Assembly (NCBI GenBank): GCA_014383605.1
Contig: JACNHM010000578.1
Coordinates: 1 to 5,032, forward strand
Direction: 5' to 3'
From: Chloroflexota bacterium
GTDB lineage: Bacteria; Chloroflexota; Anaerolineae; UBA3071
DNA length: 5,032 nucleotides
This document shows positions 2,618 through 5,032 of this stretch, piece by piece. Position 1 is the stretch's first letter. The number at the start of each line of letters is the position of its first letter. The notes under the pieces were generated by a model. The model worked only from the letters and a program-made list of their open reading frames with translations, was not told the origin of the DNA and did not search any database. A program made the translations under genes and the position numbers.

Positions 2618-3529
2618 ATGGGCTACCTGCAGGACTTTGTGGGTCGGGAAGAGGAGTTGGATATCTTCTGCCAGATGCTGCGCGGCGAGCGGCGGGAGCG
2701 GGTGCTGGACATCTGCGCCGGCGGCGGCACGGGCAAGAGCTACCTGCTGTGGCGGATACGCCAGGAGTGCGGGGAACGGAGTGTGCCCTGCGGCCTAGCC
2801 GGGTTCGCCGCCACCTGGCAGCCCGACCCGCTCAAGCTGATGTGCGAGCTGGCCGAGCGAGTAGGTCAGAGGCACTTTCCCAACTTCCGCGAGCAGGTGG
2901 GACGCAGCCTCGCCTCGCTGCCTAGCAAAGGGGACGTGGCCTCGCTGCGGAAGCAGTTGGAAATACACCGCCGGAACCTGGTTGACCTTGAGATGCAGCG
3001 TGCCCAATATGGTATCGACGTGCCGGTACGCGTCTCCCGGGCGATCGAACACGAGGAGGCCGAGATTGCCCGATTGAGGGAGGCGGAGAAGCAACTGGCA
3101 GAGGACCAGGAACAACAATTGCGAGCGCTCTCACTCGCATTCTGCGACGAACTGTCAGCTCTGACCGCCGAACGGCCGGCGGTGCTGTTACTGGATGGCT
3201 ATGAGCACACCCCCAGTGAGGCGGCCAACTGGATCCAGGATTGGCTGCTGCAAAAGAGCATTCGCGAGCAAGAGACGCGGCTCATCGCTGTGCTGGCCGG
3301 GCAGCCAGCCGGGGTACGACCTTGCTTCGAGCCCTGGGGCAACTGGTGGCGGGTGGTGGTGCAGCGCCAGCGGTTGAGCGCGCTGCGATACGAGCATGTG
3401 CGGGAGTACTACTGCGACAAATGCGGACTGACGCTGGAGGAGGCACACTTACGCGCCTATCACATCGTGGTACAGGACGATCCGTACATGATGGCCCAAA
3501 TCGCTGCCAATCTGGGAGGATGCCGATGA
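2618..3529 (+). CDS. STAND-like P-loop NTPase with inserted helical hairpin
   Basis: This 303-aa protein opens with YLQDFVGREEELDIF (3-17), the entry motif common to STAND/AAA signalling ATPases. It then has Walker A AGGGTGKS (34-41, with Ala at the usual first Gly), Walker B VLLLDGYE (189-196) and a sensor-like strand RLIAVLAGQPAG (221-232), where Gln stands at a place many STAND proteins use Arg. Next comes a helical lid-like region LSALRYEHVREYY (253-265). Residues about 108-165 form a charged two-helix module placed between Walker A and Walker B. It has no transmembrane segment or signal peptide and is presumably cytosolic. The protein stops where a winged-helix and repeat domain would be expected; these occur in the next gene, which overlaps by ATGA (3526-3529). 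The role is inferred to be a nucleotide-controlled switch working with that partner. Other P-loop ATPases are possible, but the order of motifs favours STAND. Confidence 0.88.
   Translation: MGYLQDFVGREEELDIFCQMLRGERRERVLDICAGGGTGKSYLLWRIRQECGERSVPCGLAGFAATWQPDPLKLMCELAERVGQRHFPNFREQVGRSLASLPSKGDVASLRKQLEIHRRNLVDLEMQRAQYGIDVPVRVSRAIEHEEAEIARLREAEKQLAEDQEQQLRALSLAFCDELSALTAERPAVLLLDGYEHTPSEAANWIQDWLLQKSIREQETRLIAVLAGQPAGVRPCFEPWGNWWRVVVQRQRLSALRYEHVREYYCDKCGLTLEEAHLRAYHIVVQDDPYMMAQIAANLGGCR
2945..3097 (+). other. Helical hairpin module inside the NTPase (residues 110-160)
   Basis: Two long charged helices, LRKQLEIHRRNLVDLEMQ (110-127) and RAIEHEEAEIARLREAE (141-157), flank a short link AQYGIDVPVRVS. 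The pattern 'L...L..H..NL..LE.Q.A.YG.DVP......IE.E.A.I..L' is one I recognise from Chloroflexota and cyanobacterial multidomain proteins. There it usually sits beside NTPase, TIR, caspase-like or repeat domains. In this protein it sits within the NTPase fold rather than at an end. Its function is unknown; a protein-protein adaptor is a reasonable inference. Confidence 0.6.
3514..3520 (+). promoter_or_regulatory. Internal Shine-Dalgarno for the second STAND gene
   Basis: GGGAGGA lies within the last codons of the NTPase gene, five bases before the ATG at 3526. It overlaps another in-frame ATG at 3520, which is thereby excluded as the start. Together with the ATGA overlap it argues for real re-initiation rather than a sequencing frameshift. 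Confidence 0.75.
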
Positions 3530-4824
3530 ACGAAGAAGAGATGTTGCGCTTGGTGCAAAGCGATTTGTCTTTCGAACAATTGCGGGCCGAGGTGACCGAG
3601 CGGCTAGTGCAGCGGGTCGAGGAGGAGGAACCGCAATGGGGAGCCTTGCTGCGGGCGGCGGCCATCCCCCGCCGCCTGGATACCGCCGTAGTGGGCGTGC
3701 TGCGCGGCGCGCCCGATGACGACGCGGGCAACCAGGCCGCCCTGCAGCGCTTGACCGCCCTCTCCTTTGTCCTCCCCGACCCGGAGGGGGAGAGCTACAC
3801 TCTGCACGAGGAGACCCGCTCCGCACTGCTCGAAGATTGGCAAATCCCTGAGCGGAGGCCACAATACGTGGCCCTGAGCCAGGCGCTGTGGACACACTTC
3901 CAGGGGCGGGATCCATTGGAGGCTCTCTACCACCGATTCGTCGTGGATCCTGAGGCTGCCTTTGATGAATTCGAGCAGCGTATCCAGAACGCCAGTGGGC
4001 TCTACCATCAGACGGCGTGTGGGGCACTGATAATAACAGCCGAAGAGCAGTCCCGCGAGTTAGACACTTGGCAGCGACTTTGGGTGCTCTGCTATCGGGC
4101 TCCACTAGCGCGAGTGGGAGGGATGATGACCTTACCGCCAATTGTCTTGCCCTCAGAATTGCTCCATGTGGGAAGCCTTACCTCCAGTGCTGAGATTCTT
4201 CTAGACGCATACTCGCACATCAATGCAGAAAGCACGTTGGAACAGTTCGAGCGCTTTGCGCACGCAGCCGATGAGTTACGCGAGAAGGGGGGCGATTGGA
4301 TCGGTTGTGCTATCGCGTTGCTTCATCTGGGGGATCGTTGCTTAGAGGTGGGAAGGCTAGAATCTGCACGGAAGTACTATGAGCAATCTAGACGTGTTAT
4401 CAGACCACTCGTCGTGCCCGAACAACGCCACAACGAGGCCGTCGCCATCTATGCCCTGGGCCTCGCAGACCTTTTCTTGGGCGACGAGAAGAAAGCACTA
4501 GATGAGCATGAACGAGCGACGGAGTTGTTTGCGCGAGCGCAAACCCACTGGCAAGTCATCGGAAACAAGAGACTGTACCAACTATGCGAGCGGGCTTTGG
4601 AGTTGATCGAGGGATTGAGGAGATTCGTTGCGGAGGCTCTGTCTCGAGGAGGAAAAACAATGTTGGAGGTAGTGGAGGGAGAAGAAGAGTTGTTCGGCAG
4701 GTTCATACGTGATCATGATGGAAGAATCTGGTTTCTTCCCGTGCTAATGCATTCTTCGCCGAGGATAATCGGAGAAGAAAGGACAAACATGGGATGCAGT
4801 GAGAGCACGAACGCAGTTGGATAA
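3526..4824 (+). CDS. Winged-helix and TPR-like partner of the STAND NTPase
   Basis: This 432-aa soluble protein continues the usual STAND domain order. Residues about 15-105 (SFEQLRAEVTERLVQRV, then LLRAAAIPRRLD, ALQRLTALSFVLPDP and YTLHEETRSALL) look like the winged-helix region that follows the NTPase in STAND proteins. Residues about 107-250 are helical without a clear motif. Two TPR-like helical pairs follow at about 258-291 (ALLHLGDRCLEVGRLESARKYYE) and 304-338 (AIYALGLADLFLGDEKKALD). The last 55 residues or so do not fit a TPR and include an unassigned segment, DGRIWFLPVL (398-407). The start at 3526 is supported by GGGAGGA and by the four-base overlap with the NTPase gene. GC falls along the gene, from 46 of 60 at 3661-3720 to 28 of 60 at 4741-4800. 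It probably acts as the sensing or autoinhibitory half of a two-polypeptide switch; this is inference. Confidence 0.86.
   Translation: MNEEEMLRLVQSDLSFEQLRAEVTERLVQRVEEEEPQWGALLRAAAIPRRLDTAVVGVLRGAPDDDAGNQAALQRLTALSFVLPDPEGESYTLHEETRSALLEDWQIPERRPQYVALSQALWTHFQGRDPLEALYHRFVVDPEAAFDEFEQRIQNASGLYHQTACGALIITAEEQSRELDTWQRLWVLCYRAPLARVGGMMTLPPIVLPSELLHVGSLTSSAEILLDAYSHINAESTLEQFERFAHAADELREKGGDWIGCAIALLHLGDRCLEVGRLESARKYYEQSRRVIRPLVVPEQRHNEAVAIYALGLADLFLGDEKKALDEHERATELFARAQTHWQVIGNKRLYQLCERALELIEGLRRFVAEALSRGGKTMLEVVEGEEELFGRFIRDHDGRIWFLPVLMHSSPRIIGEERTNMGCSESTNAVG
4646..4653 (+). promoter_or_regulatory. Strong Shine-Dalgarno before an internal in-frame ATG
   Basis: GAGGAGGA lies six bases before the ATG at 4660, which encodes Met379 of the winged-helix/TPR protein. 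Initiation here would give a separate 54-aa product equal to the non-TPR C-terminal tail. Whether it is used cannot be told from sequence. Confidence 0.45.
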
Positions 4825-4848: not shown

Positions 4849-4926
4849 ATGCCTGAGAAAACCATATCCATTGCCAAGGCAGCAGAGATGGCCCAGCAGG
4901 CGGCAGAGGCCTGGGAGAAGGTGTGA
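4849..4926 (+). CDS. Possible 25-aa microprotein, Ala-rich amphipathic helix
   Basis: ATG at 4849 to TGA at 4924-4926 encodes 25 residues, beginning MPEKTISIAKAAEM and ending AEAWEKV. After a short start it is a continuous Ala/Gln/Glu/Lys helix with hydrophobic residues spaced as in an amphipathic helix, and it has no Cys or signal peptide. It lies 24 bases after the winged-helix/TPR gene, so it may be the third cistron of the same transcript. The reason to call it is the ideal Shine-Dalgarno; a leader peptide or a chance ORF remain possible. I recognise no family. Confidence 0.5.
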   Translation: MPEKTISIAKAAEMAQQAAEAWEKV

Positions 4927-4977: not shown

Positions 4978-5032
4978 ATGAGCAGCATGGTCAATACATT
5001 GACACTCCAGAAGGAAGCCATTCCGTTAGTCC
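4978..5032 (+). CDS. Start of a gene, possibly a DUF433-type antitoxin (partial)
   Basis: The frame from ATG 4978 is open to the window edge and gives 18 residues, MSSMVNTLTLQKEAIPLV. It has a consensus Shine-Dalgarno at the right distance and begins 51 bases after the small ORF. The ending 'L.L...AIPL' resembles the N-terminus of DUF433 proteins, small antitoxins often paired with PIN-like toxins and common in Chloroflexota and cyanobacteria. Eighteen residues cannot establish this. That a gene starts here is fairly sure; the family is a guess. Confidence 0.6.
   Translation, partial: MSSMVNTLTLQKEAIPLV

Follow-up and report, generated by a model that had tools for sequence, protein, structure and literature searches.

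A STAND NTPase core divided between two neighbouring, often overlapping genes in Chloroflexota

STAND switches, among them the NLRs, normally combine in one chain an NTPase and the winged helix by which it is locked. MalT, a STAND regulator of E. coli, is a single polypeptide in which the NBD is followed by the lid, then the winged helix and a TPR-type arm, with a DNA-binding domain at the C terminus. Separated parts of the plant NLR Rx can reportedly function in trans when supplied as fragments. In two studies of EAD-coupled conflict systems (Kaur et al. 2020, PMC7159879; 2021, PMC8195603), EADs are presented as adaptors, mostly at protein termini, through which effectors are recruited. Among the literature matches listed, a set mostly outside the subscription literature, none described a STAND core divided at the border of NTPase and winged helix. 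Here we describe a pair of genes that divides the core at this position and probably belongs to an old family of such pairs in Chloroflexota.

The window, by which we mean the entire 5,032-nucleotide stretch of Chloroflexota DNA that was analysed, contains two genes on the forward strand that the original prediction had read as one STAND protein divided between overlapping cistrons. Gene 1 (2618–3529) encodes a 303-amino acid STAND NTPase with a helical lid. Its reading frame is open from 2612/2618 to 3529, and the ATG at 2618, which is preceded by a Shine-Dalgarno-like GGAGG (2608–2612), agrees with the starts of full-length homologues in the alignment. The NTPase core motifs that had been claimed for gene 1 are all present: Walker A (GGGTGKS, residues 35–41; 2720–2740), Walker B (LLLD; 3185–3196), the strand LIAVLAG and the helical lid. 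G39 and K40 of Walker A and D193 of Walker B are invariant in alignment A3 (15 sequences). Gene 1 encodes a P-loop NTPase in which both Walker motifs are present, and its NBD has a fold of the STAND/AAA+ class; Pfam models AAA_16 (4.4e-6) and AAA_22 (2e-5) match it slightly under their cut-offs. Gene 2 (3526–4824; 432 amino acids) encodes a winged-helix-like region and a TPR-like arm. The ATGA at 3526–3529 joins the two genes as a start/stop overlap, and GGGAGGA (3514–3520), within the end of gene 1 and five bases ahead of the second ATG, provides gene 2 with its own Shine-Dalgarno sequence; both can be read directly in the DNA, as predicted. GGGAGG also lies ahead of the second start in L117, L119, L130, L167, L172 and L173.

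Where the core is cut was addressed by comparison with MalT. The profile of fused family members, which carry both parts in one protein, aligns to MalT 28–352 (hhalign E 3.3e-13, one comparison) and places the cut before the winged helix, which supports the predicted boundary between NTPase/lid and winged helix. The TPR part proposed for gene 2 was upheld by a TPR_12 match above the Pfam cut-off (9.5e-9), which supplies the superstructure-forming repeats of a STAND protein, with a predicted role as sensor. Its putative winged helix (3583–3900, approximate limits) was delimited through the identity of relatives and through the fused members, which bring the family into register with the winged-helix region of MalT; the WHD profile by itself aligned weakly to MalT (probability 0.3, E 0.19), short of significance. 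MalT is the top structural row for the model of the window NBD, for which Foldseek gave no match below 1e-3 (best, RdrA at 1.6e-3) and PDB sequence searches gave no convincing relative (best E 0.038). The predicted model of gene 2 is poor (pLDDT 57) and retrieved generic TPR matches, with the STAND-TPR structure 6mfv at rank 43. In the PDB sequence search with gene 2, the best 60 of 76 matches cover the TPR part of the profile only.

A protein search with gene 1 returned 19 matches, one of which was the window's own. Fourteen of the 18 others are 306–307 amino acids long and 65–71% identical, three are shorter (175, 204 and 279 amino acids) and one of 287 amino acids is 44% identical; the C-terminal ends agree within one residue in an alignment of 16 of these 18. 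The search left out candidates longer than 1.75 times the query, a limit that hides fused proteins, and genomes were therefore surveyed. Scans of general genome contigs and of viral contigs with profile A1 found no relative, so Anaerolineae genomes were reached through the neighbouring carboxylase. Among 396 genomes of the class, 53 matched profile A3 at 1e-10 and 49 matched A1 at 1e-6; in these scans, as in a scan of 400 genomes of the phylum, scoring covered only five candidates from each of most genomes, which makes absences weak. We examined 63 regions selected from the matches, and the resulting figures are counts rather than frequencies. With the window included, they comprise 64 NBD-bearing ORFs in Chloroflexota: 32 split (a WHD ORF starts near the NBD stop), 27 fused (a tail of more than 150 amino acids extends beyond the NBD within one ORF, with a WHD match there in 20 of the 27) and five without class. 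Two of these five are L178, in which the next ORF begins at an ATGA and which appears split by eye, and L121, an NBD with no WHD ORF behind it. Of the 32 split loci, 17 offer a 4-base ATGA or GTGA overlap. Since this overlap recurs and both proteins have conserved relatives, the pairing exceeds chance.

The phylum scan gave matches at 1e-15 in 19 of the 400 genomes, in 22 rows that represent 21 genes. Sixteen of the genes were examined, G001 (already covered) and four with frames of 775–1204 amino acids that may be fused being omitted, and the set is biased to short frames as a result. Fifteen of these 16 loci are split with a WHD ORF next, one of them (L240) with its NBD in two frames; the sixteenth, L221, stops at its contig end. 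Samples of three other phyla at E 1e-15 matched in 0/199, 1/193 (a 1233-amino acid frame) and 0/199 genomes, a weak result with 11–12 candidates per genome, and a further sample of other phyla matched in 0/10 genomes at 1e-10; the empty scans (0/199, 0/199 and 0/10) ran without a positive control, so absence there is uninformative. The STAND core, which is expected in its entirety in a single polypeptide, lies in separate genes in the window, in 31 other survey loci and in 15 of 16 further loci. The original prediction had proposed to see if homologues are encoded by neighbouring genes or by a single fused one; the surveys show pairs cut at the same place, alongside the 27 fused genes.

Two features of the window pair go beyond the original prediction. 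The first is a helical hairpin of ~64 amino acids (2921–3112; two long helices in the model) inserted in the NTPase, where it fills the stretch ahead of Walker B; 15 of 16 aligned homologues share it with the window (P0018 partly; P0019 not). The hairpin has no Pfam match. Matches to it occur in 16 further ORFs or ORF ends, at a terminus in 15 of the 16 and internally in L087. Pfam scans of ten carriers identified SIR2 in L088 and L103, CHAT-TPR in L087 and AAA in L096, L107, L108 and L112, and nothing telling in the remaining three. The hairpin thus resembles an EAD in being small, non-enzymatic, helical and common to effector proteins (seven of the ten scanned carriers), and departs from the terminal position of EADs in being internal to the window NTPase. 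By analogy, we suggest that it works like a mobile, EAD-like adaptor. Among 47 NBD genes scanned (46 split genes and L221), the hairpin occurs in that of the window only, which counts against our explanation; G001 contains hairpin effectors, yet its split NBD (L117) is without a hairpin.

Other members carry recognised modules on the first gene. An effector domain precedes the NBD in three split first genes, namely CHAT in L125, HD-CE in L183 and TIR in L277. L132 has a trypsin-like domain; its ORF ends 38 bases short of the contig end and its partner is unseen. EAD7 lies inside the NTPase, ahead of Walker B, in L126, L174, L204, L205, L207 and L208 (above the Pfam cut-off) and in L136 (below it), and is C-terminal in L192.

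Several further observations concern these genes and their surroundings. An AGxD-type motif chosen by eye, [IV]AG[GR]x[IVL], is present in the NTPase insert of L117–L120, L122, L123, L167, L237 and L238, and all nine of these split genes are without EAD7 and without the hairpin. Upstream in L118 (4484–4960), a small protein matches EAD7 weakly (0.019) and contains an IAGRDI motif that resembles VAGGSI inside the NTPase of the next gene. A small protein, with one membrane helix by eye, is also found directly or shortly ahead of the split NBD gene in L180 (1584–1898), L190 (minus strand) and L178 (minus strand). In L282 and L284, an ATPase-like gene that ends in a window-type hairpin is preceded by a long gene whose product consists of propeller-like, WxG-type repeats, perhaps another sensor/NTPase gene pair.

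For members with effectors, a role in phage defence is plausible; for the window pair it is more conjectural. There is nonetheless a considerable chance, although we lean away from it, that the family comprises conserved signalling or transcription-type STAND proteins, as MalT is, rather than a defence system. Six genomes that we call Herpetosiphon-like, because contig 1 of G497 is presumably the Herpetosiphon aurantiacus chromosome, argue for such a role: their pair looks orthologous and conserved, unlike patchy defence genes, which counts against our explanation. In 15 pairwise comparisons among them, dN/dS was 0.01–0.09 for gene 1 and 0.04–0.13 for gene 2, low values which indicate that purifying selection has retained both genes in these genomes. 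In addition, the genes next to L234, L237, L242 and L244 resemble, by eye, genes for metabolism or transport, and PADLOC has no model that matches either window protein at 1e-3 or the NBD of L234. These points are opposed by the CHAT, TIR and HD-CE effectors and the EAD7 adaptors of other members, and by the position of the window pair itself. It adjoins two small genes that match PADLOC candidate-defence models, PDC-M44A (1856–2185) and PDC-M44B (2185–2568; TumE by Pfam), which follow a carboxyl-transferase gene (237–1787).

We considered this pair, a TumE-type toxin and its partner, as an effector of the STAND genes and found no support for it, as a homologue of TumE's partner also lies behind the carboxylase of L117 (by eye), ~4.3 kb from the STAND genes there. 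The intergenic region at 86–210 consists of low-complexity ggttggtgg and ttggtagat units followed by a roughly complementary stretch, ccaatctaccaat. At the other end of the window, a further reading frame begins with MSSMVNTLTLQKEAIPLV (4978–5032) and runs off the contig.

The second unpredicted feature is that homology between gene 2 and its relatives ends near residue 196. The first 190 codons are 60–68% identical to P0021, P0025, P0026, P0027 and L117, and P0021–P0027 share the window gene 2 up to approximately residue 196 and diverge after it. No protein besides the window's own matched residues 196–432 among 1951 candidates, and a tblastn search of the fetched loci with the arm gave two weak matches (29 and 32% identity). 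Downstream of gene 2 and in frame with it lies a 25-codon remnant with its stop, MPEKTISIAKAAEMAQQAAEAWEKV (4849–4926, forward strand); 16 of its last 17 residues are those of the very end of P0021, and 11 of 14 agree with P0024. The simplest reading of this one contig is that the TPR arm of the window (4111–4824), for which no relative was found, is probably a replaced cassette whose predecessor left its end downstream. We find it doubtful that the window copy is instead decaying, with gene 2 a truncated relic that has lost a proper TPR array. Gene 2 is short (432 amino acids versus 484–543 in its seven closest relatives), and the lack of homologues for its second half and the orphan tail would fit decay; the ORF, however, continues without a stop across the new part, in which TPR repeats are still recognised, and the motifs of gene 1 are intact. 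The WHD-TPR protein of L234 begins with a zinc-ribbon-like stretch, CPTC...CPRC.

The gene pair and the position of the cut are conserved, and split genes cluster strongly in trees. In a first tree of 64 NBDs, three changes between split and fused were required, versus a mean of 19.6 after shuffling; a single clade of all 32 split genes was rejected on this tree (p-AU 0.012), which counts against our explanation. A second tree contained 80 rows (49 split, 27 fused and four unassigned), with L178, L277 and L278 added as split and L279 as fused, and with L198 (a long row), L240 and L221 omitted. It required two changes versus a shuffled mean of 22.5, and 26 of the 27 fused genes form one group (96/92); a single change occurred in 0/200 bootstrap trees. 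The remaining fused gene, L129, is placed among split genes and is a natural fusion of the two parts. A WHD tree of 52 rows likewise has two changes. With the trees unrooted, either arrangement may be the older.

The two parts also share much of their history. NBD and WHD distances are correlated across 46 pairs (Mantel r 0.83; maximum 0.21 in 2000 permutations), and the nearest neighbour in NBD and in WHD agrees in 23 of them. The correlation indicates that pairs usually stay together and speaks against free exchange of partners. L276 (G024) is a WHD-TPR gene ahead of which no NBD was recognised over 3.5 kb, as far as the contig end, in a genome that has three split pairs; this orphan second gene and the orphan first gene L121 leave room for some partner exchange. 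The same two orphans would fit the idea that the pair is real while its products act apart, as an independent ATPase and a TPR adaptor with nothing but expression in common. We regard this as improbable, given that the cut lies inside a core that functions as a single unit in other STAND proteins, that L129 joins the parts, that the subunit histories are correlated and that the genes are adjacent in 32 and 15 loci. A single STAND gene broken by frameshift or assembly error at 3526 is hardly credible: the domains follow one another as in a one-protein STAND and fused relatives exist (27 of 64), but gene 2 has its own Shine-Dalgarno sequence, the nearest tree relatives (L117, L119 and L118) are all split, the same cut, often with the same ATGA, recurs in independent assemblies and so excludes assembly error as its cause, and the 32 of 64 and 15 of 16 split loci together with the NBD tree refute breakage for the family.

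We therefore favour, with some confidence, the view that the window pair is a member of an old Chloroflexota family of STAND switches whose core resides in two neighbouring, often overlapping genes and operates as a two-part switch. Many bacteria of this one phylum seem to build an NLR-like switch from adjacent genes for a motor and a sensing arm. We infer that the two proteins form a complex that switches upon binding a ligand and delivers an output. Subunit 1 comprises the P-loop NTPase and lid, to which an effector (CHAT, TIR or HD-CE) or an adaptor may be added, the helical hairpin in the case of the window; subunit 2 would comprise the winged-helix-like region and a fast-changing TPR arm. 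In the proposed model, subunit 2 binds subunit 1 much like the winged helix packs against the rest of the core in MalT or Apaf-1, and keeps subunit 1 in an ADP-bound, closed state. Binding of a ligand to the TPR arm would shift subunit 2, whereupon subunit 1 would exchange its nucleotide and assemble, and the adaptor would gather the effector. More tentatively, the family might represent a natural two-subunit NLR-type switch in which the nucleotide-locking winged helix sits on an exchangeable sensor subunit, unrelated adaptors are plugged into one site inside the NTPase subunit, and replacement of cassettes renews the TPR arm; sensor, switch and effector could then be swapped independently of one another.

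If a conserved two-gene family keeps NTPase and lock apart, autoinhibition would become directly testable in biochemical work by adding, removing or swapping the lock protein. The family also displays an adaptor port inside an NTPase domain. It suggests that Chloroflexota have a conflict-type system which PADLOC models did not recognise here.

The window pair resembles MalT in the order of its parts, from NBD and lid through a winged-helix-like region to a TPR-type arm, and the alignment of the fused-member profile to MalT 28–352 is in keeping with this. It differs from MalT, a single polypeptide with a DNA-binding domain, in being cut before the putative winged helix and in having no DNA-binding domain by Pfam in either protein. 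Single-chain STAND-TPR proteins of Anaerolineae (e.g., L128) belong, by profile, to these NBD and WHD families and also have TPR repeats, whereas they are encoded by one gene and 26 of the 27 fused genes group apart in the tree. The Rx fragments are likewise separate parts of an NLR, but they are laboratory products, whereas the Chloroflexota pair is a natural gene arrangement. EAD7, CHAT and TIR link the EAD-coupled conflict systems (PMC7159879, PMC8195603) to the NTPases described here; EADs are described as mostly terminal there, whereas in the Chloroflexota family EAD7 is embedded in the NTPase domain, and a separate protein provides the WHD-TPR arm.
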